The position numbers were made by a program, and so were the translations under genes. Source: Desulfobulbaceae bacterium (GTDB lineage: Bacteria; Desulfobacterota; Desulfobulbia; Desulfobulbales; VMSU01). From it: a stretch of 45,601 bases of DNA. This document shows, piece after piece, positions 95 through 36,478 of the stretch. Under the pieces are notes generated by a model. The model saw only the letters and a program-made list of their open reading frames with translations, was not told the DNA's origin and made no database searches. Position 1 is the first letter of the stretch. Every line of letters begins with the position of its first letter. The stretch lies in contig VMSU01000206.1 in NCBI GenBank assembly GCA_013792005.1, positions 1-45,601 on the forward strand, written 5' to 3'.

Positions 95-1207
95 TCAGAT
101 GAAATTCACCCCGAACGGTTGTTCTCCCTGGGGGTCCTGCAACTGCCGTTGACCTGTTTTCAACTCCCACAGGTACTCATTTACCTTGTGTTGCAGGCAC
201 AAGGTGCCGCACATGGAATGGGCATCGAAGTGACCAGAGGCAATCAGCCGCATGACCTCCCGGTAGCGCTCACCCTGCCAGATATCTTTGAATGAGGCGT
301 CGGCAATATTGCCGATATGGTAGGTATTATATTTACGATTAAACAACATGCCGCAAGGGGCCACTAGTCCGGAGCCGGAGAACTGCATAATGAAGGCCGG
401 GCCGTAGCACTTGCTGTAGTTGCGCTTGCCGCCGCTCAGGATCTTCGACCATTTGGCCTGGACCAGGTAGTCGCTATCGGAGAGCGCCTCCGCCTCTTTG
501 AGCAAAGAGACCAAATCAAAATAGCGCTCGTACTCAACTCCCAGGCTACCCCCCTCATCATCGCTGCAGTGCTTGATCACCAGGTAATCAACCCCCAGGA
601 CCTTGCCCAGGCGTGCAAGCGGCAGCACCTGATCGGCAAAATCAGGCATCAACACCATCTGCAGGCCGATCATGGTGGACAACTGCTGCTCTTTTTTAAC
701 CTTAACCGCGACCTTGACCGTTTCACACACCTCATGAAACAGCTCCTCCCGGCAGCCGTGTATCTCGGCATAGCGTTTCGCCTGACCTGCTGAGATGTTG
801 AAGCGGAGATAGGTCAAAGCCGACAAGATCTCGGGGATCCTCTCCCGCTGCAAGAGAGTGCCGTTGGTGCCGAGCGCCATATCAAGGCCATTGTGCCGAC
901 CATGAAGAATGGTGTGATAGAGATGCGGTGAACAGGTACTCTCGCCATCACTCACCAGGCTGATGGCCTTAACCCCGATTTCGGCCGAATCATCAAGAAA
1001 CCTGGAGATGGACTCCCGGGTCAAGCGCTTCTCGTCGTTAGCTTGGAGCTGCCCATAACAGTAGACACAACGCAGGTTACAGGCCCTGGTCAAAGCGCAA
1101 TCGATGGTGATCGGGGCGATATGCTCGCCGGCAAGCCAGGCCTCGACCCGCTCACGGTGCCATTCAAGCTTATGACCGTCGAGGATCAGGTTACTCGTCC
1201 CGATCAT
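95..1207 (-). CDS. Radical SAM/SPASM-like protein A
   Basis: Predicted cytoplasmic radical SAM enzyme of 370 residues, which would use a 4Fe-4S cluster to cleave S-adenosylmethionine. The cluster motif is C43-x3-C47-x2-C50 (RACNLRCVYC). The usual GGEP motif after it is replaced by SDGES. A C-terminal segment with CGMLFNRKYNTYHIGNI, then a 'FKDIWQGERYREVM' element and further Cys residues, resembles a SPASM/twitch auxiliary-cluster region. The reading frame opens at 1246, but I chose the ATG at 1207 because GGAGAGACC precedes it; it then overlaps the upstream E1-beta-like gene by 17 bases. It is homologous to the radical SAM gene at 2669-3727: both begin with a HKL-x2-H...RVxxW segment and share the motif change. 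Substrate unknown; the neighbours suggest sugar or small-molecule modification. Confidence 0.85.
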   Translation of the reverse strand: MIGTSNLILDGHKLEWHRERVEAWLAGEHIAPITIDCALTRACNLRCVYCYGQLQANDEKRLTRESISRFLDDSAEIGVKAISLVSDGESTCSPHLYHTILHGRHNGLDMALGTNGTLLQRERIPEILSALTYLRFNISAGQAKRYAEIHGCREELFHEVCETVKVAVKVKKEQQLSTMIGLQMVLMPDFADQVLPLARLGKVLGVDYLVIKHCSDDEGGSLGVEYERYFDLVSLLKEAEALSDSDYLVQAKWSKILSGGKRNYSKCYGPAFIMQFSGSGLVAPCGMLFNRKYNTYHIGNIADASFKDIWQGERYREVMRLIASGHFDAHSMCGTLCLQHKVNEYLWELKTGQRQLQDPQGEQPFGVNFI

Positions 1208-1718
1208 AAAGGTCTCTCCGCTCAACGAGCATAATGGGCGAATCAAGCTGCACAGCCAGCCGGTAAGCCTCTGTCACCTCGGCTGCGGTAGTCAGATCCA
1301 TAACCGGAAACGACAGCATACGTCTGAAGGCCTCGGTAAAATCTTGAGTATGCTGCGGCCCAGGGTCCAAGGGTTCCCGCCCACCAACCGTGGCCCGGAT
1401 GATAACCGGCGTCTTGAACTGACCCTGGGACATCGTTTCAATCTTATCCAAATGATTGACAATGGCATCCAAAGCATTGAGTACAAAATCATGGCGCTCA
1501 TAAAACAGCACCGGACGATAACCGGTAAGGGACATACCGATGGCCAGTCCCGCCATCAGATTCTCCGCCACCGGAGTCTCGATGCACATCGCCTCCGGCA
1601 CTCCACTTAACGTGCCATAGGCCCTCGACCCGAAGCGGACATTATAGCCAAGAAAAACTCTCCGCTCATCCTGAGCCAGGGTGGCCATCGCCTGTTGTAT
1701 CGCATCACGGTATGTCAT
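1191..1718 (-). CDS. E1-beta-like transketolase pyrimidine-binding subunit
   Basis: Predicted 175-residue ThDP-binding PYR-domain protein resembling the N-terminal half of 2-oxoacid dehydrogenase E1 beta subunits. The segment IETPVAENLMAGLAIG around E52 matches the conserved region holding the glutamate that activates ThDP. Normal E1-beta proteins are about 325 residues with a C-terminal transketolase domain; that domain is absent here. It probably pairs with the E1-alpha-like gene upstream at 2025-2672, giving a minimal PP + PYR two-subunit enzyme, as in the sulfopyruvate or phosphonopyruvate decarboxylase arrangement. Its stop codon lies inside the start region of the following radical SAM gene, so the two are coupled. 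A palindromic repeat separates it from the alpha subunit. The family assignment is firm; the reaction is not known. Confidence 0.8.
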   Translation of the reverse strand: MTYRDAIQQAMATLAQDERRVFLGYNVRFGSRAYGTLSGVPEAMCIETPVAENLMAGLAIGMSLTGYRPVLFYERHDFVLNALDAIVNHLDKIETMSQGQFKTPVIIRATVGGREPLDPGPQHTQDFTEAFRRMLSFPVMDLTTAAEVTEAYRLAVQLDSPIMLVERRDLYDRDE

Positions 1719-1748
1719 TTACATAGCAAGGATAAAGGTTGAATTATG

Positions 1749-1911
1749 GTAACTGCTCAGGTTGTCGGTTTACGGTTGACAGTTGACGGTAATTGGGTCC
1801 TGCCAATGGCTAAGAACACACTGACATTGAATATCATGCGATGATTTATGACTAACCATGATTCTTTTAACCGTAAACCGATAACTGATTACCGTTAACC
1901 TGTGTAGTTAC
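1749..1911 (+). repeat. Palindromic MITE-like repeat, copy 1
   Basis: Copy of a dispersed element of about 160 bp. It begins GTAACTGCTCAGGTTG and ends CTGTGTAGTTAC, so the ends are imperfect inverted repeats starting GTAACT. Inside, both arms carry degenerate 7-bp units of the type CGGTTTA/CGGTTGA. The centre holds ATCAT-GCG-ATGAT, a small hairpin. It occupies most of the 306-bp gap between the E1-alpha-like and E1-beta-like genes and has no coding capacity. Confidence 0.85.
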
Positions 1912-1937
1912 GAATAATTCATAATTTCTGTAAGTCT

Positions 1938-1983
1938 GTTAACCGTAAACCGGTAACTGATCACCGTCAACCTAGGTAGTTAC
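1938..1983 (+). repeat. Solo right end of the palindromic repeat
   Basis: A second copy of only the right arm of the element lies directly after copy 1. It runs from GTTAACCGTAAACCGG to GGTAGTTAC and matches the last 45 or so bases of copy 1 with a few changes. It looks like a partial tandem duplication or the remnant of another insertion. Confidence 0.7.
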
Positions 1984-2024
1984 GAATTACGAATGATGAA
2001 GGTGACCCCAAATCAACTCGCGGC

Positions 2025-2672
2025 TCAAAACGAAGATTCCTCGATCTTTTTGCCCCCAAACTCGATCATATTCCCGGTTCCGGTGCCAACATGAGGAAAG
2101 GTGGGGATGTACGAATAGCGGCGGACACAGGCAGGCCACTGCAGGGATGAAAGGCCATGGCGTTCTGACTTGGGGGTCTCCACCGAACGGTTGTTATCTT
2201 CCACAACAAAGACGCACGGCAAATCGTGACCATCCACATACCGCACCGCCTCATAAAAATGCCCCTCATCTTCGGCCCCGTCACCGCCAAAACACCAGAC
2301 TTTCACCTTACTCCCCTGCCGCTTCAACGCCAGGGCCACTCCAGCAGCGATAGCAGGGGCTCCGGCGACAATGGCCGAGGTTAAAAAATTTATCTTCCGA
2401 TCGAAGACATGCATACTGTCACCAGCCAGGATCATCCGTTCCAATTCTGCGGGAGCCCCACCGGCTAAAAGATAATGATAATGGCTGCGATGGGTCGAGA
2501 AGATATAATCTCCCGGATGAATCTCGCGGTAGATGGCGATCAACTCTCTCTCGTTCCCCCCAGACAAATGAATGGGGTATGGAATTTTAGCTTCTTCAAA
2601 CAGATCAAAGATCCGCTTTTCGAAACTGATCAAACTATCAATGAGTGATACTTCGGTCTGGTTTTCGTTCAT
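2025..2672 (-). CDS. E1-alpha-like ThDP-dependent dehydrogenase subunit
   Basis: Predicted 215-residue PP-domain protein of the pyruvate/acetoin dehydrogenase E1-alpha family. The ThDP/Mg2+ motif is visible as GDG at 130-132, followed after a normal spacing by EDNN at 158-161. The segment IFSTHRSHYHYLLAGG is typical of E1-alpha active-site loops. It is much shorter than usual E1-alpha proteins (320-360 residues) and stops soon after the ThDP motif. The frame opens upstream at 2753, but the ATG at 2672 overlaps the stop of the preceding radical SAM gene as ATGA, which indicates coupling. The likely partner is the PYR-domain gene at 1191-1718. No E2 or E3 gene is present, so a non-oxidative decarboxylase or carboligase role is as plausible as a dehydrogenase. 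Confidence 0.82.
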   Translation of the reverse strand: MNENQTEVSLIDSLISFEKRIFDLFEEAKIPYPIHLSGGNERELIAIYREIHPGDYIFSTHRSHYHYLLAGGAPAELERMILAGDSMHVFDRKINFLTSAIVAGAPAIAAGVALALKRQGSKVKVWCFGGDGAEDEGHFYEAVRYVDGHDLPCVFVVEDNNRSVETPKSERHGLSSLQWPACVRRYSYIPTFPHVGTGTGNMIEFGGKKIEESSF

Positions 2673-3727
2673 ATGAAATCGTCCCGCTCCTCTGGCGATA
2701 CCACCCGGTGCAGATACCGGTTGATCGCATCCAGCCGACACCCCTGTCGGCACTCCTTGATGTTCCGTTTTTTCATTGCCTCCAGCACCTTCTTCCGCTG
2801 CTCCCCGGTCCAGATCTCGGCAAAACTCTGCTGCTTCAGATCCCCATAGATAAATTCGGGATCATTATAGAAGAGATTGCAGGGGATGATCTGGCCATGG
2901 GCATTAATCAGTGCAAAAAAAGGCAGTCCATGACAGAGGCCATAGTCAGCGCTATCGGCCAGCCGCAGCATACTGTTGCTCCGAAAAAAAACCGTAAACG
3001 TCTCTGACTCAAAGGCCTTGAGCTGGGGTTCCAGATGAAGATACTGCTGATAATCCAGATAGTATCGATTAGAGCTTGATGGGTGCTGAGAATAAGGCTT
3101 GACCTGGAAATTGTCGGCCCCGGCATCTTTCACCAACTCGGCTAACTGAAGCACCCCATCAAAGGCTTCAGGCAACAACAGTATCTGGACCCCGATATCC
3201 ACCTTCAAATTATTCTGACGCTTAAACTCGGCGGCATAACGGATATTGGCCAGTACCCGCTCGAAATCCCCTGCTTTTGTTTGATGAATTGCAGCATACT
3301 GTTCGGCCGTCCCGGCATTAACACTGAAGCGTATCCACGACAGATAAGGAAGACAGGCTTCGGCCTTGTCCGGGGTCAACGGCACGCCATTGGTGGTTAC
3401 CGCAACCTTGATGCCATGAGCATTGGCCACCCGGATAAACAAAGGGGCATCCCGATGAAGGAGGGACTCACCCTCCCCGGCAAACATAATCGACTTGACT
3501 CCATGTGCCGCCATGTCGGCAAGTGACTGGACCAAGACCTCACTGTTAATGTCCACTCCGCCCCGCTCCAACCAGTCGAGGGCACAGAACACGCAACGGT
3601 GATTGCATCGGTTGGTCAGACCTATTTCGACATAGACCGGGAAGCAATCCCCCCGCTCCTGCCACTGGGCCACCCGGGCGGGATGATACTGGAGTTTATG
3701 AGAGTCTATTCGGTTTGTTTTTGACAT
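2669..3727 (-). CDS. Radical SAM/SPASM-like protein B
   Basis: Predicted 352-residue radical SAM enzyme with cluster motif C41-x3-C45-x2-C48 (NRCNHRCVFC). The GGEP position reads AGEGES. The C-terminal part carries CHGLPFFALINAHGQIIPCNLF, a 'FAEIWTGEQRKKVL' element and further cysteines (CRQGC), like a SPASM/twitch region. It is a clear paralogue of the radical SAM gene at 95-1207: both start with a HKL-x2-H...RVxxW segment and have a similar SAG/NAG motif near residue 150. I chose ATG 3727; an in-frame TTG at 3742 is possible, and neither has a strong ribosome-binding site. Its stop overlaps the E1-alpha-like start as ATGA, so the two are probably made together. Substrate unknown. Confidence 0.85.
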   Translation of the reverse strand: MSKTNRIDSHKLQYHPARVAQWQERGDCFPVYVEIGLTNRCNHRCVFCALDWLERGGVDINSEVLVQSLADMAAHGVKSIMFAGEGESLLHRDAPLFIRVANAHGIKVAVTTNGVPLTPDKAEACLPYLSWIRFSVNAGTAEQYAAIHQTKAGDFERVLANIRYAAEFKRQNNLKVDIGVQILLLPEAFDGVLQLAELVKDAGADNFQVKPYSQHPSSSNRYYLDYQQYLHLEPQLKAFESETFTVFFRSNSMLRLADSADYGLCHGLPFFALINAHGQIIPCNLFYNDPEFIYGDLKQQSFAEIWTGEQRKKVLEAMKKRNIKECRQGCRLDAINRYLHRVVSPEERDDFI

Positions 3728-3730
3728 AAT

Positions 3731-3825
3731 GTGACTACTCAAGTGGTCGGTTTGCGGTTATCAGTTGACGTTAGATTATTACCAGATGACTGGCACCATG
3801 AGTCTGTTAACCATCAACCAGAACC
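3731..3825 (+). repeat. Degenerate copy of the palindromic repeat
   Basis: The sequence GTGACTACTCAAGTGGTCGG followed by TTTGCGGTTATCAGTTGACG matches the left arm of the dispersed element with several substitutions. Around 3801-3825 there is a weak match to the right arm (GTCTGTTAACCATCAACC). The central hairpin is not recognisable. It sits just upstream of radical SAM protein B. Confidence 0.5.
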
Positions 3826-3990
3826 TCATCAAATATTTCGTCACCTCAGCATGACTTTAGCTGAGATCCAGTGGATCCAACGACCTGGATTCCGCATAGA
3901 ATCTTCGTAACCGTTCACCAGTGACATCAAAACCACAGGCAACCTCGAAGCTGTAAACGTTCAGCAGAGCTGCAGATTCACGGAATAATA

Positions 3991-4839
3991 TCACCGTATT
4001 TCCACAGCACAGCTCCCCATCTGGAGATAACGGTTGGTCTTGAGCTTAACATCACAGGGATTGCAGGCGCCAAAATTGTCGCACGGCCTGAAGGCATCAG
4101 TAATCTCAAGCTCCGAATCGATAACTGAAGCGATGCTACTCTCCCGGCGATAAAGATCCCGATGACAACGGTAGATACCGCCGCCCGGCCCGATCAGAAT
4201 TTCCTGGGTCCGGCACTCGACCTGCTTTAGCTTTCCATCCAAGGCCTCGGAATACTTGAAATGACCGAAAAGCCGCCCGTCAGACATCCCCAGAAAATCC
4301 TTCACAAAAAAGAATATTCGGTTATCACAGGCCATCTCAGCCATTTTCATGTTCTGTTCGATATTCGACGGATGGTTGAGTCCAAAAATCCCGATGCTGA
4401 ATCCCGCCTGCTGCAGCTTGATCACCTTGGCAAGCAGCTCAGACGCGTCCATGCGCTCAACATGATAACTCACCCGAATCGCCTTGTAGGCCGGGAGTTT
4501 GCAGCGGTTGAACCGCCCAGGCGAGGTCTTGGCGATGAAGGCGTCGATATCAAACTCAAGGTTTGTCAAAAGATCGATGGCAATATCCGGCCGCAAACGA
4601 TCGAGCAGTTCGAAAAACTCAGGATAGAGGGTGGGCTCACCTCCGCCCAAGGTCAGAGGATTATCACCGAATTCGATTCGGTTTAAGCCCTCGGCCCATT
4701 GCCTGGCGCTCAACTCCTCCCGCTTTCTGGCTGCCTTGCCCGAACGTTCATTAATACAGTAGACGCACCCCAGATTGCAGCGCAGGGTAAGATAGGCCTC
4801 AATATAGTTATACCGCTCCGGCAAGATCACCTTCTTCAT
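3991..4839 (-). CDS. Radical SAM protein C
   Basis: Predicted 282-residue radical SAM enzyme. The cluster motif is C21-x3-C25-x2-C28 (LRCNLGCVYC) and a canonical GGGEP follows at 65-69, unlike the two paralogues downstream. The C-terminal end is Cys-rich (CH...FRPCDNFGACNPC...GSC) and may bind an auxiliary Fe-S cluster. The start codon overlaps the stop of the upstream GT2 gene as ATGA, so the two form a coupled pair. It is more distant from radical SAM proteins A and B than they are from each other. About 250 bp with a degenerate repeat separates it from the next gene. Function unknown; the GT2 partner points to glycan or cell-surface metabolism. Confidence 0.85.
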   Translation of the reverse strand: MKKVILPERYNYIEAYLTLRCNLGCVYCINERSGKAARKREELSARQWAEGLNRIEFGDNPLTLGGGEPTLYPEFFELLDRLRPDIAIDLLTNLEFDIDAFIAKTSPGRFNRCKLPAYKAIRVSYHVERMDASELLAKVIKLQQAGFSIGIFGLNHPSNIEQNMKMAEMACDNRIFFFVKDFLGMSDGRLFGHFKYSEALDGKLKQVECRTQEILIGPGGGIYRCHRDLYRRESSIASVIDSELEITDAFRPCDNFGACNPCDVKLKTNRYLQMGSCAVEIR

Positions 4840-5558
4840 CCGATTGCTGTCCCTAGGTGTCGGTAACGATCCCTATTCCTGATCCGCACATCATAAACCA
4901 AAAGAGCGATGGTCCTGATGACCCCAAGGATATTGTTAATACTGAAAATTGCGGTCTTATTGGTCGGCTTGATCTGAACACCAAACTCGGTATAACTGCA
5001 CCCTGACTTGATCAGCTTGATCAGTATTTCAGCATTATAGGCAAAATCCTGAGATTTGACCTCAAGCCCCTGGAGCAGTTTGGTGGGATAGACCGCATTG
5101 CCATTGTAATATTTCAGCTTAAGCACGAACAGGTGGTTCAGCAACCAGACAAAGGCATTGGAAATAACCTGTCGATGCCATTGCCTGACCTCCATATTAG
5201 TCGTGTAGGAGATGATAATATCGGCCTTGCCCGCCAGGTTGATCGCTTGGGCAAGAGAGTGCCAGGAATTTTCATTGTCTCCGGGAAACAACACAAAATA
5301 GTCCATCCGCGCCGCCCTGACCCCTACCATGTAATTAGCGCCAAGACCAACCCACTGTGTCTGATGGATCACCCGAATCTTCGGATTGGCGACCGCAAGC
5401 TCGTCGGCAATTCGCCCCGTGTTATCGCTGCTGCAGGCATTGAGAATAATGATCTCGAAATCACCCCCATAGCCCTCGACCGCACTCAATGCCCCGGCCG
5501 TGGCATTGGCCAGATTGCTCTCTTCATTAAACGCAGGAATAAATACTGTAATCGACAT
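4836..5558 (-). CDS. GT2-family glycosyltransferase, atypical
   Basis: Predicted 240-residue GT-A fold transferase of family GT2. The start MSITVFIPAFNEESNL is typical of the family, and FPGDNEN occupies the DxD region. The nucleotide-binding segment that normally reads DDGSxDGT reads LNACSSDNT here, so the usual aspartates are missing. It lacks C-terminal membrane helices of the DPM3 or GtrB type apart from some hydrophobic stretches near 120-145. The open frame extends to 5666, but ATG 5558 is preceded by a clear GGAGG, so I chose it. It is the first gene of the minus-strand radical SAM operon and is divergent from the secreted module at 5776. It could be inactive, or use an altered donor site. 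Confidence 0.8.
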   Translation of the reverse strand: MSITVFIPAFNEESNLANATAGALSAVEGYGGDFEIIILNACSSDNTGRIADELAVANPKIRVIHQTQWVGLGANYMVGVRAARMDYFVLFPGDNENSWHSLAQAINLAGKADIIISYTTNMEVRQWHRQVISNAFVWLLNHLFVLKLKYYNGNAVYPTKLLQGLEVKSQDFAYNAEILIKLIKSGCSYTEFGVQIKPTNKTAIFSINNILGVIRTIALLVYDVRIRNRDRYRHLGTAIG

Positions 5559-5563
5559 CCATA

Positions 5564-5568
5564 CCTCC
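5564..5568 (-). promoter_or_regulatory. Ribosome-binding site of the GT2 gene
   Basis: GGAGG on the minus strand lies 5 bases before ATG 5558. It decides that start over the upstream in-frame ATG at 5666, which would add 36 residues with no family resemblance. Confidence 0.7.
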
Positions 5569-5775
5569 GGCGCCAACAACCAATTAAAGTTGCCCCAGCC
5601 ATGTTTTCTGTGTAGAGTTATCAGGAAGATAGCCCGAGCATATGTCTTAGCAGGCACAAAAACCAAGGAAGGCCGTTCCTGCTGTAAAGTGTGCGCACGT
5701 GTCGCCTGACTAACGCACTTTTTACCTCGAATATATTCATTGTACGATAACTTTCATTAAAAAGGAGGGTGTCCC

Positions 5776-6735
5776 ATGAAAAAAATTATTGCGTTTACGC
5801 TAGGGTTATTTCTGACTCTACTAGGAACTGGTATGGCCGATGTCCCCGGGTTCATGAAAGAACAGATGGGCACACTAAAAGGTATCGTCTACGTCAAGGA
5901 CAAGCCCTTCACCGACGCCATCGTCGCTTTTTTCGATAAAAATGGCGGCCCGCCGCCGATCACCGGCAGCGCCCGCCGGGTACCGGACGCCATCGACCGC
6001 TCAAGCGCCAAAGGAGAATTTTCCGCAAAACTGCTTCCTGGGACCTACTTCATGGCCACCATGCAACGCGATCCGAAGAAAGGCTTTGGTCCACCCCGAG
6101 AAGGAGAAGAATTCTTTTTCATGCGTGACGACACTGGCAAACTCCGTGAATTCACGATAGAAACCAAAAAGACGAACGATGTCGGCAGGACCGATGGCCT
6201 AGCCCCTGGCGCTTTTGAGGAGTTCAAAAGCTTTATCACCATTAAGGGCAAAGTGACCAGCGACGAGGGGAAACCTTTGGCCGGGGTCTTAGTCACCTTG
6301 AAAGACAACGTGGAGGCCCCCCGGCCTAAGTTTATCTCCCATGCCACTGGGGATGACGGCACCTTCTCCGTCAAAGTCCCACCGGGTAAATATTATGTCA
6401 TGGCTCGAGAATCAATTGGCGGTGGCAAGCCAGGGATCGGCACCTTCATCGGCTCTTACGGCAAAACCGACCCCCTTGGCGAGGCTGTGACCCCCAATAT
6501 GGGCAGTCAACCCGGCGCCTCTGCCGCGGCAAAAGATATACAAAGTGCCGGCAGCGGTCAGGCAATAGCGGTAGAAGGCAAAAATGGCGCGGTAATCGAA
6601 AACGTCAATATCCAGATGTTTAAGATTCCCGACCCAGTCGCGACCCGCGAAAAGTATGAAGCCGAGGCAAAAAGCCAGGCAGGCCTGCCCCAGCAGCCGC
6701 CAGTGTTCATCCTCGATCCTGCTGAAAAGAAATAG
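5776..6735 (+). CDS. Secreted two-domain carboxypeptidase-regulatory-like protein
   Basis: Predicted 319-residue exported protein. An N-terminal signal peptide (MKKIIAFTLGLFLTLLGTGMA) is followed by two beta-sandwich repeats of the CarboxypepD_reg type. The first is at about 33-110 (GTLKGIVYVKDKPFTDAIVAFFD... LLPGTYFMA). The second is at about 153-215 (ITIKGKVTSDEGKPLAGVLV... VPPGKYYVMA). The tail is Gly/Ala-rich and then Pro-rich. A strong AAAGGAGGG ribosome-binding site precedes the ATG. No enzyme active site is seen; such domains are structural or adhesive. It is homologous to the protein at 30949-31926. Together with the next two genes it forms a secreted module that recurs later in the window. 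Periplasmic or cell-surface location is inferred. Confidence 0.85.
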   Translation: MKKIIAFTLGLFLTLLGTGMADVPGFMKEQMGTLKGIVYVKDKPFTDAIVAFFDKNGGPPPITGSARRVPDAIDRSSAKGEFSAKLLPGTYFMATMQRDPKKGFGPPREGEEFFFMRDDTGKLREFTIETKKTNDVGRTDGLAPGAFEEFKSFITIKGKVTSDEGKPLAGVLVTLKDNVEAPRPKFISHATGDDGTFSVKVPPGKYYVMARESIGGGKPGIGTFIGSYGKTDPLGEAVTPNMGSQPGASAAAKDIQSAGSGQAIAVEGKNGAVIENVNIQMFKIPDPVATREKYEAEAKSQAGLPQQPPVFILDPAEKK

Positions 6736-6793
6736 TAACCCAACACCCAAGGTCCCCATTATTGTTGGGTTACGGCCTGGCGGCCTAACCCAA
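6735..6793. repeat. REP-like palindromes after the gene
   Basis: Two overlapping inverted repeats start at the last base of the stop codon. GTAACCCAACA pairs with TGTTGGGTTAC (6735-6745 and 6763-6773). The second arm then pairs again with CCTAACCCAACC to about 6793, across CGGCCTGGCGGCC. No T-run follows, so this looks more like a REP-type intergenic palindrome than an intrinsic terminator, though it could protect the upstream mRNA. Confidence 0.65.
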
Positions 6794-6833
6794 CCTACAA
6801 AGATACTCACACACCCCATATAGAGGAAGATTC

Positions 6834-9338
6834 GTGCCATCAGGAAGACCACCCCCCTTACTGCTCATCATGGTCCTACTGACTACCATTATCCTGCCGA
6901 CTCGGCTTCAAGCTGAAGTACTTACTGCCAATACCGTCTGGCAGGGACAAGTCCATCTTACCGACGATGTGCTCGTTCCTGCCGGAATTACCCTGACTGT
7001 CAAAGCGGGCGCCGTGATCACGGCCTCCCCTGCCGAGAGCACCAAGATCGACCCCGAGTATCTTTCCCATCAAACCGAAATCCTGGTCCGCGGCATCCTC
7101 AAGATTGAAGGCACGCCAGACTCTCCTGCTACCTTTGCCTCAGATAGCGTATCCGCAGACGATGATACCCGCTGGGCGGGGATCATCGTTGACGGCGGCA
7201 CCCTTGAAGCGACATTCGCAAAAATCAACGGCGCCGAGACAGGGGTGTATGTCTTTAAGGGACGAGCAGCACTGACTTCAGTTGTGGTAGACAAGAACCA
7301 TTACGGCATCATCGCCGACGGCAAAGATGCCCACATCACCTTGTCCCAAGCCACGATAAGCAAAAACGACTATGGTGTTTCCACCTTCAACCGGGCGATC
7401 ATCACTGAAGATACCGTCACCATCAAAGATAACCACAAAAAGGATCGCCTTGCCAGCCAGGCAACTGCGGCCCAGGTCGCCCCAATCTCCTTAAGCCTGC
7501 CTTCGCCCCCCCTCACCCACGCCTACACCAACGAAACTCTGATGGGAAACACCATCTGGCGGGGCCGCATCAGCGTTAACGGCCAAGTGCGGCTGCCACC
7601 GGAAGGACGGCTGATCATCATGCCCGGCACAATCATCGAGTTCGGCAAAACCGACACCAACGACGATGGCATTGGCGAAAACGGCATCTTGATCCAAGGC
7701 GCTCTGATTGCCAAAGGCACCAAGGAGCGGCCGATCCTCTTCCACTCTGCCGAGAAATCCCCGCAAATGGGCGACTGGGACTCAATCAATATCCTAGGTA
7801 GCGATCAACAACGTAATGTGATTGAGTTCTGTCAGATTGAAGATGCCTATCGCGGCTTCCACTTTCACTTTTCAGCCGTGGCGGTCACCAACTCGGTGTT
7901 GCGCAACAACTATCGCGGCGTCCAATTTCAGGAATCGGTGGTGGAACTTCGCGACAACCAATTCTACCACAACAAGAGCGGCCTGCAGTGCCGAGATTCC
8001 GATGTCACCCTGACACGCAATCAGCTCTTTGACAATATCATCGGCGCCAACCTGTACCGTCTCAACCTCCAAGCCCGCGACAACACCTTTGCCAATAACC
8101 GCTGGGATGGCTTACGGATTCGGGAGGGAGCGGCAACGGTCGAACACAACAAAATGATCGGCAACCGCTTTGGCCTGCAAGTGGCCGATGCCGTCTTTGG
8201 CCGGTTCAATCGCAACCTGATGACCGCCAACATCGAAACCGGCCTGGCGCTACGCAATACCGACAACATCGAGACCAGCGCCAACGCCATTGTCGGCAAT
8301 GGCATAAACGGCCTGATTATCCGCGAAGCGCGAGGGACCGTGACCGGCAACTTCATCGCCGATAACGGTGAACGCGGCATCGGCATTCAGTCCTTTATTG
8401 GTCAGATCAAGGCCAACACCATCGTTGATAACGGTCTCTACGGGATCGGACTGGAAGGAAAGGACGACATCGCAGCCACCGGCAACTGGTGGGGCGACTC
8501 AAACCTGGACAAAGAGATCTTTGACCACCATGATGACTTAAACTTGGGTCTGGTGACCTTTGAACCTCGTGCGACAGCGCCACTGCCCTTTGCCTGGCCA
8601 ACTGCCGAGATCCCAGTCAATCTCACCTTGAGCAACGAAATCACGGTCACCTCTACCATTACCGTGCCCCAGGGGGCAACACTTGCCATCAAACCGGGAG
8701 CCACCATCCGCTTCGCACCTGAGGCCGGGATGAACATTCTTGGCCGAATTGAGGCGGGGGGCACGAAAGAACATCGGATCACCTTTGCGCCTCTTGACGA
8801 CCACGGGCCATCCAGTTGGGGGGAGATCAAGATGGAGCGGGCCATGGGCAGCTTCTTTACCAACTGCGACTTCAGCAAGGCGACGTGGGCGCTCCACAGT
8901 CACTTTGTCGACCTCAAGGTCAGCCACTGCCAATTCGATGGTAACGATGGAGGTATCCGCATCAACAACGGCCCTGTTGATATCAGTCAATCCCGCTTTC
9001 GCAACAACCGTATCGGTTTCCGATCATTTCAGGGAATCGCCACCATCCACAACAACGAGTTCACCGGCAACGAGACAGCCATCTTTGTCAGAGAAAAAGG
9101 TAGCGGGACAATAATCAACCACAACAACCTTACGGATAACGGCATGTACGCTATCCGCTTAGGTGATTTCAATGACGAGGATGTTGATGCCCGCCACAAC
9201 TGGTGGGGAGGAAAGCCGGTCCTGGACCAGGTTTTTGACGGCCACCGCGAAGAGTATATCGGCACGGTGCTCTTTGATCCGGAACTTAAGGCGCCGATTA
9301 CCCTCGACTGGAGCCCCACGGGAGGAGACCGCCCATGA
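6834..9338 (+). CDS. Secreted right-handed parallel beta-helix protein (NosD-like)
   Basis: Predicted 834-residue exported beta-helix protein. The GTG start has GAGGAAG just upstream, and a signal peptide runs to about residue 27. Three homologous blocks each open with a 'TxWxG...G.TL.I.PG' cap (about residues 33, 236 and 600; the third is degenerate). Runs of short N-rich coils follow (xxNxFxxNxxGL). NWWG motifs close the helices near 548 and 785. A DTNDDGIGENG loop near 272 resembles an EF-hand/dockerin calcium site. The fold is shared with NosD and pectin-lyase-type proteins, but no catalytic residues are evident. It is homologous to the two beta-helix genes at 32346 and 36479 and is followed by an overlapping beta-sandwich gene. 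Likely a surface or periplasmic structural protein. Confidence 0.87.
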   Translation: MPSGRPPPLLLIMVLLTTIILPTRLQAEVLTANTVWQGQVHLTDDVLVPAGITLTVKAGAVITASPAESTKIDPEYLSHQTEILVRGILKIEGTPDSPATFASDSVSADDDTRWAGIIVDGGTLEATFAKINGAETGVYVFKGRAALTSVVVDKNHYGIIADGKDAHITLSQATISKNDYGVSTFNRAIITEDTVTIKDNHKKDRLASQATAAQVAPISLSLPSPPLTHAYTNETLMGNTIWRGRISVNGQVRLPPEGRLIIMPGTIIEFGKTDTNDDGIGENGILIQGALIAKGTKERPILFHSAEKSPQMGDWDSINILGSDQQRNVIEFCQIEDAYRGFHFHFSAVAVTNSVLRNNYRGVQFQESVVELRDNQFYHNKSGLQCRDSDVTLTRNQLFDNIIGANLYRLNLQARDNTFANNRWDGLRIREGAATVEHNKMIGNRFGLQVADAVFGRFNRNLMTANIETGLALRNTDNIETSANAIVGNGINGLIIREARGTVTGNFIADNGERGIGIQSFIGQIKANTIVDNGLYGIGLEGKDDIAATGNWWGDSNLDKEIFDHHDDLNLGLVTFEPRATAPLPFAWPTAEIPVNLTLSNEITVTSTITVPQGATLAIKPGATIRFAPEAGMNILGRIEAGGTKEHRITFAPLDDHGPSSWGEIKMERAMGSFFTNCDFSKATWALHSHFVDLKVSHCQFDGNDGGIRINNGPVDISQSRFRNNRIGFRSFQGIATIHNNEFTGNETAIFVREKGSGTIINHNNLTDNGMYAIRLGDFNDEDVDARHNWWGGKPVLDQVFDGHREEYIGTVLFDPELKAPITLDWSPTGGDRP

Positions 9339-10060
9339 ACAGACGTGCCCTGATGCTGGTCCTGACACTAATCACCCTCCTCTGTCCCAGCATGGTCGTG
9401 AGCGCGGACTTTGTCCTTTCCGGAGTCATCTCCGATGTCAACGGACAGCCTGTGAGAAGCGCTGAAGTATCGCTCTATCGCAGTAAGAACGTCAAGAAAC
9501 CCGCGGACTTCGCCTCCAACCGAACGACCGCCGATGGCGCCTATAGTGTCACCATCCCTCAAGGAAACTACTGGGCGGTTGCCGCCCTTCGCAAAGGGGA
9601 ACGTCGCTTTGGCCCGCTGGAACTCGGAGACAAACACTCCGGAGACCCCGTGGAAGTGATCGCCAAAGCAGAAATCGATCTGACTCACAACTTCATAGTC
9701 ATGGATCTGCGAGAGGCGGCAAAACAAAATCAGAAAAAAAACACCGATCTTTTCCAATTAAGCGGCCGGATAATAGACCAGAACGGCTCTCCTGTGGTCA
9801 TGGCCTATATCATGGCGGATAAAAACCCACGATTCAAAGAGATGCCGAGCTACATCTCGCCCTGGACCGACTCAAGCGGCGGATATCTACTCTTGCTGCC
9901 CCAAGGAAAATATCACCTCGGGGCTACCACGACATACCCTCCCGAGCCAGGCCAAACATTACCCATCGCAATTGACCTCTCTGTCGACACCGATAACGTT
10001 GATCTTAAGATAATCACAGAGGATACAGGCAAACCAACAGACCACACTGACGCCGACTAA
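9335..10060 (+). CDS. Secreted carboxypeptidase-regulatory-like protein
   Basis: Predicted 241-residue exported protein with a signal peptide of about 24 residues (cleavage near VVSA). Two beta-sandwich domains are visible: about 25-115 (FVLSGVISDVNGQPVRSAEV... IPQGNYWAVA) and about 140-230 (FQLSGRIIDQNGSPVVMAYI... LPQGKYHLGA). The start overlaps the stop of the beta-helix gene as ATGA, so the two are translationally coupled and probably work together. It is homologous to the 246-residue protein at 35721-36461, which also directly follows a beta-helix gene. Function unknown; an accessory or anchoring partner of the beta-helix protein is likely. Confidence 0.83.
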   Translation: MNRRALMLVLTLITLLCPSMVVSADFVLSGVISDVNGQPVRSAEVSLYRSKNVKKPADFASNRTTADGAYSVTIPQGNYWAVAALRKGERRFGPLELGDKHSGDPVEVIAKAEIDLTHNFIVMDLREAAKQNQKKNTDLFQLSGRIIDQNGSPVVMAYIMADKNPRFKEMPSYISPWTDSSGGYLLLLPQGKYHLGATTTYPPEPGQTLPIAIDLSVDTDNVDLKIITEDTGKPTDHTDAD

Positions 10061-19663: not shown

Positions 19664-19801
19664 GTAAACGTCTACCGGGTGCCCCAGATGCGCGATTTAT
19701 ATTGACCCGCTTCGTCGGTCAATAAAGCGGTCTGCGAAGTGTGCTAGTTGCACATGAGCAGGCCGATGACAAAGCAGATGGGGTGCCCGGTAAACGTTTA
19801 C
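19664..19801. repeat. 138-bp inverted-repeat element
   Basis: Arms of 28 bp at 19664-19691 (GTAAACGTCTACCGGGTGCC...) and 19774-19801 (...GGTGCCCGGTAAACGTTTAC) are inverted repeats with about three mismatches. Inside are a perfect 7-bp hairpin, ATTGACC/GGTCAAT at 19701-19723, and GTGC/GCAC at about 19741-19753. No coding capacity. It lies exactly between two divergent genes and ends 15 bp before the GT2 start, so it occupies the promoter or leader region. It differs in sequence from the GTAACT repeat family. Confidence 0.75.
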
Positions 19802-19816
19802 TATTTAAGAGACAGC

Positions 19817-20599
19817 ATGCCGGAACTAATGGATACCCCTGAACTTTTGGCCAGTATAATATTACCCACCTATAATGAAAAGGGTAATATCGAAAAACTG
19901 ATCCCGGCGCTAAGCGCTGTCTTGCCCTGGCCTGTGGAGTTTATCGTCGTTGACGACAACTCGCCCGACGGCACCGCCCAGGCGATCAGAGAGATCATAC
20001 CCACCGTCGCCAATATCAGACTGATCGTCCGGACTGAGGAACGGGGTCTGGTCAGCGCTATCCAGCGGGGCATTGACGAGAGCCAAGGCCGAATCGTGGT
20101 CTGGATGGACTGCGACTTCTCACTGCCGCCAACAACTGTGCCGCAATTAATCACCCATGTCCTTGACCACAACGCAGATGCTGCCATCGGCAGCCGCTAT
20201 ATCCCTGGCGGCGCCGATGAACTTTACGGCCACAAAGGGCCAATCGTGGTCATCCAAAAGTGCGCCACCCATGGCTTGAACTGGCTCACCACCCTCCTCA
20301 TGCAAACCCACTTTCATGACTGGACCAGCGGATTCATCGCCATCCGAAGCGAGGTGATCAAAGGCATCCCTCTCCATGGCGACTATGGAGAGTACTTCAT
20401 CATGCTGATGGCAGAGCTGATCCGTGACAACTACCGCTGGGTCGAAGTCCCTTACCAGAATATCCCCCGAACTATAGGCCAGTCAAAGACGGCCGAGACC
20501 TTCCTCGGCCTGATGGGACGCGGCAGCCAATACCTCCGCCACATCTTCAAGGCCCGAGCGCTAAAAAATAGCGCTCCATCTCGGCGAACCAGGCCGTAG
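19817..20599 (+). CDS. Dpm1-like GT2 polyprenyl-phosphate sugar synthase
   Basis: Predicted 260-residue GT2 enzyme resembling dolichyl-phosphate mannose synthase. Visible motifs are ILPTYNEKGNIEKL, VVDDNSPDGT (nucleotide binding), VWMDCDFS (DxD, metal) and GSRYIPGG. The family's R-x3-GxSK element appears as RTIGQSKT. No C-terminal membrane helices are present, as in soluble Dpm1. It would load a sugar, plausibly mannose, onto a polyprenyl phosphate at the inner face of the membrane. I chose ATG 19817; ATG 19829 is also possible, and the longer frame from 19748 runs through the inverted-repeat element and is unlikely. A TMTC-like gene follows after 7 bases, so enzyme and user of the lipid-linked sugar appear co-transcribed. 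Confidence 0.87.
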   Translation: MPELMDTPELLASIILPTYNEKGNIEKLIPALSAVLPWPVEFIVVDDNSPDGTAQAIREIIPTVANIRLIVRTEERGLVSAIQRGIDESQGRIVVWMDCDFSLPPTTVPQLITHVLDHNADAAIGSRYIPGGADELYGHKGPIVVIQKCATHGLNWLTTLLMQTHFHDWTSGFIAIRSEVIKGIPLHGDYGEYFIMLMAELIRDNYRWVEVPYQNIPRTIGQSKTAETFLGLMGRGSQYLRHIFKARALKNSAPSRRTRP

Positions 20600-23298: not shown

Positions 23299-24408
23299 AT
23301 GCAGATCCCGGTCAACGAACCGCTGTTAAACGGCAACGAGAAACGCTATCTCAGCGAGTGTATCGACTCGGGCTGGATCTCCAGCGAAGGCCCCTTTGTT
23401 GCCCGATTTGAAAAAGAGTTTGCCGCAACAGTCAGCCGGCGACACGGAATCGCCACCGCAAACGGGTCCGGCGCCCTCGACGTGGCAATTGCGGCCCTCG
23501 GCCTTGGTCCGGGGGACGAGGTAATCATGCCGTCCTTCACCATCATCTCCTGTGCCCAGGCCATCGTCAGACAAGGAGCAACCCCGGTGCTGGTGGACTG
23601 CGACCAAGCCAACTGGAACATGGATGCCGACCAGATTGAAGCCAAGATCACCCCACGGACCAGGGCCATCATGGCAGTGCACATCTACGGCCTTACCTCC
23701 GCCATGGAAAAGATTCTCGACCTCGCCAACCGATACCATCTGAAGATCATCGAAGATGCGGCCCAGGCCATCGGCCAGCACCACAACGGCCAACCGTGCG
23801 GTAGCTTCGGCGACCTCAGCATTGTCAGTTTTTACCCCAACAAACACATCACCACCGGCGAAGGTGGCATGGTCCTCACCGACAATCAGGAACTGGCCGA
23901 CCGTTGCCGCGCCCTGATCAATCTCTGTTTTCAGCCACAGAAACGATTCGTGCATAAGGAGTTAGGCTGGAATTACCGAATGACCAACCTCCAGGCCGCA
24001 GTCGGTTGCGCCCAGCTTGAACAATTGAGCCGCCACGTTGCCCGAAAACGGGAGATTGGCCATCTATATAACACCTTACTTTGCGATTGCCCCGTGCAAA
24101 GGCCCCTGCCCTCAGCACACGGCACTGAGAATATCTATTGGGTCTACGGACTTGTGCTACCAGACGATGCGCCGCTGTCTGCCACCAAGGCCATGAGCCG
24201 ACTTTCGACCAAGGGCATTGGCACTAGGCCATTCTTCTGGCCGATGCACCAGCAACCGGTGTTTCTGCAGATGGGTCTCTTCCAGGATCATCACCTCCCG
24301 GTATCGGAACGACTGGCCCGTCAAGGGCTTTATCTACCCAGTGGCTTGGCCATCACCGACACCCAAATTCAATATGTCGCAGATGAGGTAAAACGCATCC
24401 TCCAATGA
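23299..24408 (+). CDS. DegT/DnrJ/EryC1/StrS sugar aminotransferase
   Basis: Predicted 369-residue PLP-dependent aminotransferase of the nucleotide-sugar class. Full-length for the family. The PLP lysine is K182 in FYPNKHITTGEGG. An EDAAQAIG motif and the TANGSGALDVA segment near the start are also typical. These enzymes convert a keto sugar nucleotide to an amino sugar using glutamate. AAAGGA precedes the ATG. It lies between the cupin and the methyltransferase, whose start overlaps its stop, so the three form a cassette. The regiochemistry (C3 or C4) cannot be told from sequence here. A role in making a decorated amino sugar for the glycosylation machinery is inferred. Confidence 0.92.
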   Translation: MQIPVNEPLLNGNEKRYLSECIDSGWISSEGPFVARFEKEFAATVSRRHGIATANGSGALDVAIAALGLGPGDEVIMPSFTIISCAQAIVRQGATPVLVDCDQANWNMDADQIEAKITPRTRAIMAVHIYGLTSAMEKILDLANRYHLKIIEDAAQAIGQHHNGQPCGSFGDLSIVSFYPNKHITTGEGGMVLTDNQELADRCRALINLCFQPQKRFVHKELGWNYRMTNLQAAVGCAQLEQLSRHVARKREIGHLYNTLLCDCPVQRPLPSAHGTENIYWVYGLVLPDDAPLSATKAMSRLSTKGIGTRPFFWPMHQQPVFLQMGLFQDHHLPVSERLARQGLYLPSGLAITDTQIQYVADEVKRILQ

Positions 24409-30948: not shown

Positions 30949-31926
30949 TCATTTTGGCCCGACGTTCTGTTCCCCACCTTTATACGACTGCTCACTTTCC
31001 TCAACGTTTCCACTCCGTTTCCGCTTCAGCGGCAAGGTATCAGGCAAGGAGTCCTTATCTATCTTCTTAGCCTTAACCTTGGCCTCTACTTCGGCACGTC
31101 GAACTTCTGGAATTGGGACCTTAAACATTGTGATATCAACATGTTCATAACTATGGCCGGCCAAACCGACAATATACGAGGCAGGCTCATCCGATTCTCC
31201 GCCCACACCAATCGGCTTGTTATGGCCCAGCGTCCCCATGAGTCCACCTGGCTTCGGCCTCCCCGCAACAGTCAACTCCTTTCTGGCAACAAAAAAATAC
31301 TTCCCGGGAGGAATTTTAAGTTCATATTTTCCGGTCAGATCAGTCTCCTTGGAGATAAACAGCCCTTTTGGGTTATCCAGGTCTTGTTTTACAACCACTA
31401 CGGCATTCTGCACCCCACGACCCTCTTCATCAATTATCCGCCCGGCAACAGTAAAAAACATCGTTAACTCTGGAAATTTCTCAGGCTCTTTAACCGAAAT
31501 GGTGCCAACATCAATCGTTTCTCCGGCTTTAACAACCACCACAAGGTATTTTCCCTCTGCGTCAAATGCAGAATACCTTTTTTCATTCTCCTTAGGCGGC
31601 CCACCCACCCAGCGTTCCCTTGGCAGTACACCAAGATAGTAGCTGCCCGCAGGAAACCAGTCCGTTTCCAATACCCCCCCTTCCTGCAAAAAAGCAATCA
31701 TGGCAGGGGATCGTTTACTCGCTCCGAAATCCATGGGATCGCCTTTATTACTATCAAAAAAAGAGACAAAACCCTTGGAAAGCGGAGCGCCTGCCACATC
31801 GACAATCTTACCCTTGACCTTACCCAAATCGGCAGGAACAGCATCACCTTCCGCAATCGCATCCTGAACAGAACAACACATCAGCATAAAAACCGACACA
31901 AAATAGAAAATTCTTTTCATTGTCAT
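30949..31926 (-). CDS. Secreted two-domain carboxypeptidase-regulatory-like protein
   Basis: Predicted 325-residue exported protein, homologous to the protein at 5776-6735. A signal peptide (MTMKRIFYFVSVFMLMCC... to about residue 25) precedes two beta-sandwich domains: about 32-110 (GKVKGKIVDVAGAPLSKGFV... FPAGSYYLGV) and about 158-225 (FTVAGRIIDEEGRGVQNAVV... IPPGKYFFVA). The tail is Lys/Glu-rich and low in complexity. ATG 31926 has AAAAGG upstream; ATG 31920 is an alternative. It is the promoter-proximal partner type of the secreted module, here separated from the beta-helix gene upstream by a 377-bp gap that contains a MITE-like repeat. Confidence 0.84.
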   Translation of the reverse strand: MTMKRIFYFVSVFMLMCCSVQDAIAEGDAVPADLGKVKGKIVDVAGAPLSKGFVSFFDSNKGDPMDFGASKRSPAMIAFLQEGGVLETDWFPAGSYYLGVLPRERWVGGPPKENEKRYSAFDAEGKYLVVVVKAGETIDVGTISVKEPEKFPELTMFFTVAGRIIDEEGRGVQNAVVVVKQDLDNPKGLFISKETDLTGKYELKIPPGKYFFVARKELTVAGRPKPGGLMGTLGHNKPIGVGGESDEPASYIVGLAGHSYEHVDITMFKVPIPEVRRAEVEAKVKAKKIDKDSLPDTLPLKRKRSGNVEESEQSYKGGEQNVGPK

Positions 31927-32071
31927 GATGAGACCTTTTAGTATTGTAATTTTCGACCTGACGATCAACCATCAAGGTAACCCGCAACACATCCCTTCAA
32001 GTTCCTGCCATCACTAAACAGGCTAATAAGAATTCATAGACCTTGTCAAACTAATACAATCTCACAATAGG

Positions 32072-32228
32072 GATAACTTGCTCAGGTTTACGGTTTACAG
32101 TTGACGGTGACTGGGTCCTGTTAATGACTGATGACACACTATCATGAGGTTCATGCGATGAATCATGACTAGTCATGATTCTTTTAACCGTAAACCGATA
32201 ACTGACTACCATTGACCTTCTAAGTTAC
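32072..32228 (+). repeat. Palindromic MITE-like repeat, copy 4
   Basis: Full but more diverged copy, starting GATAACTTGCTCAGGTTTAC and ending CTTCTAAGTTAC. Its central hairpin is TCATGA-GG-TTCAT-GCG-ATGAA-TCATGA, which differs from copies 1 and 3 yet still pairs. A further stray right-end fragment, CTGTGTAGTTAC, lies at 32326-32337. Together they account for most of the 377-bp gap between the beta-sandwich and beta-helix genes. Confidence 0.82.
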
Positions 32229-32345
32229 AAATCATTTATCGATATCTATATCTAAATGAAATCAAAAAATTTTCTGACAATTTGTATCTTTCATAATAAA
32301 TACCGGCGGCATCCCGGTTGGGAAGCTGTGTAGTTACAAATAGGG

Positions 32346-34820: not shown

Positions 34821-34936
34821 GGAAGTATAATTCCCGCTAAACTATTAAAATTATTGTGCACAGACACCATCCGCGTTTCCACCGACAAAAAAACCCTAAG
34901 AAAAACATTATGTCTTGTCAATTTAAACTAAATGAC

Positions 34937-34980
34937 AAAAAAAAAGCACAAGACCACCTCAATTAGGTATTCTTGTACTC
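34937..34980 (-). terminator. Intrinsic terminator after the OpuAC-like gene
   Basis: On the minus strand a hairpin with arms around GTACAAGAATACCT and AGGTGGTCTTGTGC (loop AATTG) is followed by a run of nine T. It lies about 60 bp past the stop of the gene at 35039. Confidence 0.8.
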
Positions 34981-35038
34981 TCTTCTGGATAACAATAAAA
35001 ATCAAATCATCAAGCTATTTGTGGAATTAACAATCTCT

Positions 35039-35626
35039 CTAAATGAGTTTTTCCTTAACTAGAAAGTCCTTAGCAACCCTGGCAGGCTTATGGCCCTTTT
35101 CCTTCACCAGATCAAGGAGGGTGGCATTTGTCACCGGATCAATTTTTCCAACCAATTTATTCAATAACCTCGGCAAGGCCGGGAACTTTTCCAAAACAAC
35201 CTGAGCAAGCGCAGGGGAGAATGTACCACTCCGCATACTATCAGCCCCAACAGCAGGCACAATTGACTCAAGAAGAATCAGCTGCATATCGTCTCGGTAA
35301 ATCGCCTTTGCCGCCTCATAGCGCTCTGTGCTCTCCGCCGCTACCTTCTGCCCACGAACCAACAAAACTTCATTAATATCGACAAGGATCAGCTCAACCT
35401 GCTTTTCAGCAATAGCACTATGCAGCTCTTTATCGGTGGAATAATATTTGATAAGCGCCTTAGTGCCCGTACGTTCATGAATGAATATTGACACAACATG
35501 GGCGAAAAGCTGCCCCTCCGCAGAATCAATGGCACCAACATTAATATCAAGATTTACGCAGGCAGAACCAGTAGTCGAAAATGCCAGAAATAACCAGACA
35601 ACAGAAATAAATAATGCTCGTTTCAT
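35039..35626 (-). CDS. Short OpuAC-like solute-binding protein
   Basis: Predicted 195-residue exported protein with a signal peptide to about residue 22 (TTGSA). The N-terminal part (INVGAIDSAEGQLFAHVV...) and the C-terminal part (LVGKIDPVTNATLLDLV... VAKDFLVKEKLI) match the start and end of glycine-betaine/choline OpuAC-type binding proteins. It is about 80 residues shorter than usual, so an internal part of one lobe is missing, and ligand binding is doubtful. No transporter genes are next to it. It lies between the second beta-sandwich gene and the beta-helix gene at 32346 and ends at a terminator. It could be a repurposed or degenerate binding protein. Confidence 0.68.
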   Translation of the reverse strand: MKRALFISVVWLFLAFSTTGSACVNLDINVGAIDSAEGQLFAHVVSIFIHERTGTKALIKYYSTDKELHSAIAEKQVELILVDINEVLLVRGQKVAAESTERYEAAKAIYRDDMQLILLESIVPAVGADSMRSGTFSPALAQVVLEKFPALPRLLNKLVGKIDPVTNATLLDLVKEKGHKPARVAKDFLVKEKLI

Positions 35627-35720
35627 AATATTATCAACAAATTAATTTTGTAAAATGACTCAGGAAAAACATAAACAATTACGTCTGCACCAATAAATTT
35701 CGTTCTGCTCACAAAAAAAG

Positions 35721-36461: not shown

Positions 36462-36478
36462 TATGGCTCTACTCCCTA

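Follow-up and report, generated by a model that had tools for sequence, protein, structure and literature searches.

The window analysed here is a stretch of 45,601 nucleotides of contig VMSU01000206.1 from a Desulfobulbaceae bacterium. At its beginning lies a set of six genes, coding for three radical S-adenosylmethionine (SAM) proteins (A, B and C; rA, rB and rC in gene orders), for the two chains of a thiamine diphosphate (ThDP) enzyme (alpha with the PP domain, beta with the PYR domain) and for a GT2 glycosyltransferase. According to the open reading frame (ORF) listing of the window all six are intact and lie on the minus strand (Table 1). The preliminary description, made from the sequence alone, had seen a one-strand operon with several ATGA overlaps. 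The common strand stands and overlaps of this kind occur at two junctions, GT2/radical SAM C (4836–4839) and radical SAM B/alpha (2669–2672), but the operon is not tight throughout, being broken up by gaps of 248 bp between C and B and of 306 bp between alpha and beta. The repeat in the latter gap has about 40 further copies or more in the same genome, mostly 84–99% identical. Translation probably starts at the ATG at 5558 in the case of GT2 and at the ATG at about 1207 in that of radical SAM A. Base 1 of the window is the contig end; the stretch downstream of radical SAM A lies beyond it and the operon may continue there.

Table 1. Genes and spacer of the radical SAM/ThDP/GT2 operon, in the order of transcription.
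Feature	Positions	Strand	Domains and matches
GT2 glycosyltransferase	4836–5666	minus	PF00535 (3.7e-20); DPM1/GtrB-like; phrog_841 (GtrB-like), 1.1e-15
Radical SAM C, 282 aa	3991–4839	minus	PF04055; conserved small family
Radical SAM/SPASM B, 357 aa	2669–3742	minus	PF04055 + PF13186
ThDP alpha (PP chain), 215 aa, minimal E1-type	2025–2672	minus	PF00676 (E1_dh), positions 8–172 of 300
Alpha/beta spacer	1719–2024	minus	interspersed repeat of ~165 bp at ~1749–1911
ThDP beta (PYR chain), 175 aa	1191–1718	minus	PF02779 (Transket_pyr), positions 3–172 of 174
Radical SAM/SPASM A, 370 aa from likely ATG	95–1246	minus	Radical_SAM + SPASM (Pfam)

A minimal ThDP enzyme and three radical SAM families

In Pfam the E1_dh match of alpha covers only part of the profile (Table 1), and beta consists of Transket_pyr alone over its whole length, without a Transketolase_C domain; the domain set of an E1 of the pyruvate dehydrogenase (PDH) type, a full E1_dh in alpha and Transketolase_C in beta, is not present. 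The 405-residue profile of phrog_34187 (PHROGs v4, annotated there as ‘unknown function’) is matched by alpha over positions 9–203 (238 bits) and by beta over positions 237–405 (202 bits), and with 215 + 175 residues the pair has the composition of this minimal family, PP + PYR only and 390–405 aa in total. Its members occur as two chains of 192–233 and about 170–200 aa or as a fused protein of 388–402 aa, and a fused alpha-beta protein is found in the cyanophages S-SM2 and P-TIM68 (‘transketolase central region-containing protein’). These represent the same minimal enzyme, whereas here it is encoded by two genes, on a bacterial contig and beside radical SAM genes, not beside a zinc-dependent alcohol dehydrogenase (Zn-ADH).

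The members of the minimal family are nearly all phage-encoded and the closest relatives of the window pair are phage genes. Alpha shares 41–55% of its residues with phage alphas of the same length and beta 36–53% with phage betas. A search of IMG/VR returned 504 viral relatives of alpha, and phage relatives of beta with 54% identity; a 735-kb phage encodes relatives of both chains (57% and 52% identical, respectively). Every alpha in the first alignment ends soon after a YxY...PH motif and the short PP domain is therefore the normal length of the family. A minimal two-piece ThDP enzyme without the usual extra domains, as proposed in the preliminary description, is borne out by the Pfam coverage and by the equal-length phage relatives. 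The genes are not truncated versions peculiar to this genome with full-length counterparts in relatives, the outcome that had been named in advance as speaking against the proposal, since the closest relatives are equally short; truncation or a pseudogene is ruled out by them.

By sequence, the pair carries what a functional ThDP enzyme needs, the cofactor motif GDG...N(N) and the catalytic Glu of the PYR domain. Alpha retains GDG...EDNN and its C-terminal end is the YxYxxTxPHxGxG...F motif of the family. Among 38 alphas and 30 betas, G130-D131...D159-N160 of alpha and Glu52 (TPVAE) and His123 of beta are invariant or nearly so. The tree places the window alpha within the clade of short phage alphas, apart from the full-size E1s, with moderate support (SH-aLRT 87–94) and two long outgroup branches. 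E1 beta and the PYR half in the model of a fused relative can be superposed to 1.9–2.0 Å over about 178 columns; Foldseek with the fused ThDP model returned DXS, E1 beta and transketolase, the superposition of the whole chain being poor (root mean square deviation 12–18 Å).

Single-sequence searches of the contigs of this genome, its relatives, 258 genomes of the class, 395 genomes of the phylum and plasmids gave no short alpha beyond the window, all other matches being ordinary E1 alphas and larger ThDP proteins. Profile searching added one further bacterium with a short pair (G674; 210 + 181 aa), located in a cluster without radical SAM gene. With PDH E1 alpha and beta the window pair shares fold class, ThDP motifs and local similarity, but it differs in the shortened PP domain, in the missing transketolase C-terminal domain and in the lack of E2 and E3. 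Genes for the latter two are absent among the six of the operon (the region beyond the contig end is unseen), in agreement with the earlier view that this is not a normal 2-oxoacid dehydrogenase, and elsewhere in the genome no other E1 alpha above the family cut-off was found. A PDH complex is ruled out by the lack of E2/E3 in the operon, of the C-terminal domain in beta and of another E1 in the genome.

Radical SAM proteins A and B had been assigned to one subfamily in the preliminary description. This assignment could not be maintained: the two are 29% identical and represent two distinct conserved families, which have a DGE/GEGE variant in common in place of GGEP (SDGES in A, GEGE in B), C constituting a third. 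Both A and B carry CX3CX2C and the auxiliary cysteines of SPASM/twitch domains (PF13186), the first auxiliary pair being spaced C-x17-C. Invariant are 3 + 4 Cys plus C227 in A (29 members aligned) and Cys 46/50/53 + 270/288/331/335 in B (18 members), a sequence pattern consistent with a single auxiliary cluster ligated entirely by Cys, like that of BtrN. C has CX3CX2C followed by five further invariant Cys (Cys 21/25/28 + 209/225/253/259/262; 14 members). Relatives of A with 57–59% identity are encoded on an Azospirillum plasmid and on phage contig L076, and the family occurs on 23 phage contigs and in six other genomes of the phylum sample. The identity of B is 41% to a protein of a Solidesulfovibrio plasmid and 33% to its relative in L076, which also encodes a relative of C (258 bits).

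The model of A (pLDDT 89.6) has DesII as its top fold in the PDB (E=3.9e-15, TM 0.64); BlsE (TM 0.72 on target), SkfB and SuiB are also among the matches. Profile matches of B are MoaA, BlsE, DesII and BtrN (the last at 3e-06). DesII, BlsE and BtrN resemble A and B in combining a radical SAM domain with a C-terminal auxiliary-cluster domain, and their substrates are carbohydrates; however, identity in the fold matches amounts to 15–18% and A and B have DGE/GEGE in place of GGEP. Against the known radical SAM equivalogs of NCBIfam (e.g. TIGR04317, MoaA, DesII) the best scores were 74–78 bits, with a cut-off at 380. BtrN is a two-electron alcohol dehydrogenase oxidising an aminocyclitol (PMC9012708). 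Two-electron oxidation of a secondary alcohol by B in the manner of BtrN would be consistent with its four auxiliary Cys and the profile match.

Recurrence of the radical SAM–ThDP linkage

The neighbourhood of radical SAM A, radical SAM B and ThDP genes, which it had been suggested to look for in other genomes, recurs in phages and in bacteria. A ThDP chain is encoded within about 5 kb of radical SAM A in 15 of the 23 phage contigs, and likewise in six of seven bacterial loci of the phylum (window included) as well as on the Azospirillum plasmid. Phage arrangements comprise beta-rSAM-alpha, alpha-beta-rB-rA, rB-rA..alpha-beta and rA-alpha-beta. Together, A, B and C recur with three kinds of two-chain ThDP enzyme, namely minimal E1-type, full-size E1-type and transketolase-type. 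The transketolase-type pair fills the ThDP slot in L076, L090, L216, L219 and L220 (also in L227) and the linkage therefore outlasts a swap of the ThDP subfamily. An ordinary E1 locus inspected for contrast (L250) has no radical SAM gene beside it. No published description of the radical SAM–ThDP pairing or of such a phage system was found in the open-access library searched.

Six bacterial loci (L222, L223, L225, L229, L248, L249) contain the operon rB-E1alpha-E1beta-GT2-B12rSAM-GT9-rC with a full-size E1. The order in the window, GT2-rC-rB-alpha-beta-rA, represents a reordered set of these genes, and its GT2 and rC fall into the protein clusters of the GT2 and rC of that operon. The cluster of the window GT2 includes the GT2 of L216–L218, L222–L225 and L229; compared with the GT2 of L248 and L249 it scores 188–203 bits. 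Loci with the rB-E1alpha-E1beta operon (L222–L225, L229, L248, L249) span several families of the phylum, and a divergent gene of 814–944 aa often adjoins it.

Near alpha, radical SAM and Zn-ADH genes are almost mutually exclusive. Among 55 alpha clusters, 31 have only a radical SAM gene, 15 only a Zn-ADH gene, one has both and eight have neither (Fisher p=5e-7; p=0.04 within unfused alphas). Most of the evaluable loci in the last group carry genes for NAD-dependent dehydratases/epimerases. Because the two are near-exclusive beside the ThDP gene, radical SAM protein and Zn-ADH may well deliver the same kind of keto intermediate, and the most economical reading is that radical SAM protein, Zn-ADH and dehydratase/epimerase each supply a keto-sugar.

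Recurrent partners are HldE-like fusions of PfkB with a nucleotidyltransferase (CTP_transf), GmhA-like SIS isomerases, NAD-dependent epimerases, DegT, GT9 and GT2. In S-SM2 and P-TIM68, genes for a kinase, a nucleotidyltransferase and a phosphoheptose isomerase lie near the fused ThDP gene. This company of GT2-, GT9-, HldE-, GmhA-, DegT- and epimerase-like genes points to an unusual sugar; a branched or C-C-modified sugar or another unusual metabolite had been envisaged as product. In a group of related phages (L113–L170, e.g. L115:5934–10600) a five-gene cassette, GT2-(250-aa GT9-like)-beta-rSAM-alpha, sits between the major head protein and the tail genes, a position which suggests virion glycosylation; the 250-aa protein has no Pfam or PHROGs match and ‘GT9-like’ is our own reading. 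A protein of 318–335 aa, weakly similar to the Rossmann domains of ArgZ/deoxyhypusine synthase, recurs with the HldE/SIS/rB/transketolase set (L216:15152–16105, L227:2708–3715).

Elsewhere in the window, paralogous large proteins are encoded between 11443 and 29709 (at 11443, 13443, 15531, 20607, 25604 and 27880), several of which contain TPR repeats and have a hydrophobic N-terminal part similar to TMTC/GT-C glycosyltransferases; the same run holds a second GT2 (19748–20599) and a DegT aminotransferase (23299–24408). Two paralogous sets (5776–10060 and 30949–38962) each consist of a carboxypeptidase-regulatory-domain protein, a NosD-like beta-helix protein of 820–830 aa and a second regulatory-domain protein. 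The window ends within a giant multihaem cytochrome (40223–45601; at least 1792 aa) with Calx-beta and MtrC/MtrF-like domains.

A proposed keto-sugar carboligation and its alternatives

Two-chain ThDP enzymes proposed to act on keto-sugars have been described from antibiotic gene clusters. Addition of an acetyl C2 unit onto a ketone is proposed or shown for the E1-like alphaKADH2 enzymes (AviB1/AviB2, Pau11/Pau12, KbDH-alpha/beta), with keto-sugars as substrates in vivo (PMC12247030, PMC4753412), and branching of keto-sugars with acetyl or hydroxyacetyl units is proposed for two-chain alphaKADH2 and split transketolases (PMC12247030; for AviB1/B2 and Pau11/12 PMC4753412). Radical SAM A stands next to pairs of both these classes, E1-type and transketolase-type. 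By its description the window pair resembles the alphaKADH2 enzymes: it is E1-like, consists of two chains and is encoded among sugar genes with no E2/E3 beside it. SPASM radical SAM partners are not mentioned for alphaKADH2 in the sections consulted.

Because of these branching precedents, the mutual exclusion and the matches to DesII, BlsE and BtrN, we propose, with about an even chance of being right, a sugar-biosynthesis cassette in which a radical SAM protein forms a keto-sugar, alpha/beta adds a C2 unit and GT2 transfers the product. A SPASM radical SAM protein, most likely B, the gene of which adjoins alpha, would oxidise or rearrange a phosphorylated or nucleotide-linked sugar; where it is missing, Zn-ADH or a dehydratase would take its place. 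An alpha-keto acid or a ketose would serve alpha/beta as donor of the C2 unit (acetyl from pyruvate, if the pair acts like the alphaKADH2 enzymes), which the pair would add to the ketone, resulting in a C2-branched or chain-extended sugar. A and C may introduce further changes, and GT2 would hand the sugar to polyprenyl-phosphate or straight to a glycan, most probably for the decoration of cell or virus surfaces. Substrate, donor, order of steps and product are what we infer for the cassette, and C2 branching by alpha/beta is suggested by analogy with alphaKADH2 together with the exclusion.

Several observations weigh against this proposal. HldE and GmhA genes are absent from the operon within the window (the contig ends at base 1), and as frequent partners elsewhere they would fit a chain-extending, non-branching role too. 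The exclusion is partly phylogenetic, since all fused alphas carry Zn-ADH, and partner counts rest on homology clusters, the ORF caller having missed genes (e.g. in L224 and L226). Judged from its sequence, alpha stops before the final part of the PP domain of E1, and its activity is therefore not to be assumed.

The main alternative, unlikely on the whole and yet to be taken seriously, is that a transketolase-like ThDP pair forms a heptulose or octulose phosphate which GmhA- and HldE-like enzymes convert into a donor resembling ADP-heptose; the radical SAM proteins would tailor it later and no branch would be made. The frequent HldE-like PfkB + CTP_transf fusions, SIS and GT9 (heptosyltransferase family) partners, the transketolase-type pairs in the same slot and the genes accompanying the fused enzyme in S-SM2 and P-TIM68 would all suit such a route. 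Hosts, however, already produce sedoheptulose 7-phosphate, the minimal pair is of the E1 type, a class working on alpha-keto acids, and several phage cassettes comprise only GT, beta, radical SAM and alpha with no isomerase or kinase nearby. Chain extension of this kind also leaves the replacement of radical SAM by Zn-ADH beside the ThDP gene unexplained. The sugar-gene setting might, on the other hand, be incidental, with the ThDP pair converting an alpha-keto acid by decarboxylation into an aldehyde or acyl group for use elsewhere, in a PDH-like or sulfopyruvate-decarboxylase-like manner. Although PDH E1 alpha and beta are the best characterised sequence relatives, this is improbable given the operon without E2/E3, the partial E1_dh and the missing C-terminal domain, the lack of another E1 in the genome and of a radical SAM neighbour at the ordinary E1 locus, and the recurrence of the radical SAM and sugar-gene linkage in dozens of phages and bacteria.

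Equally improbable in our view are SPASM proteins acting as maturases of ribosomally synthesised and post-translationally modified peptides, yielding a glycosylated modified peptide, or modifying proteins of the virion or the host directly. In favour are the frequency of SPASM domains in peptide maturases, the presence of SkfB and SuiB in the list of fold matches and, in many phages, the location of the cassette between head and tail genes; against this, the best fold of A is DesII, the profile matches of B include BlsE, DesII and BtrN, four conserved auxiliary Cys suggest one cluster as opposed to two in classical SPASM maturases, and the partners are mostly sugar genes. No precursor peptide was noticed, no systematic search for one having been made. 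Finally, the repeat element between alpha and beta and the rarity of orthologues among bacteria of the phylum could point to a decayed or chance assembly with the ThDP genes as remnants; this is very improbable, the ORFs being intact and 41–55% (alpha) and 36–53% (beta) identical to distant relatives, and the phage relatives being equal in length with invariant catalytic residues.

More tentatively, we consider it possible, though rather doubtful as a whole, that one modular cassette is common to phages and bacteria, with a radical SAM dehydrogenase providing a keto-sugar which is then branched by a very small carboligase of the E1 type (in total about 390 aa). Phages, which often carry it between head and tail genes, would use it to glycosylate their virions or to mask host receptors with an undescribed sugar, and the bacterium examined here would be a rare cellular owner of the phage form. 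In a cyanophage study of 2010, the question was raised whether phage sugar clusters might be functional or ‘stuffer DNA’ (PMC3037559). The proposal offers a testable function for these clusters and for the abundant phage family phrog_34187 with its more than 500 viral matches. If it is true, radical SAM oxidation would be coupled to ThDP carboligation, and very small carboligases would be available for the making of branched sugars.

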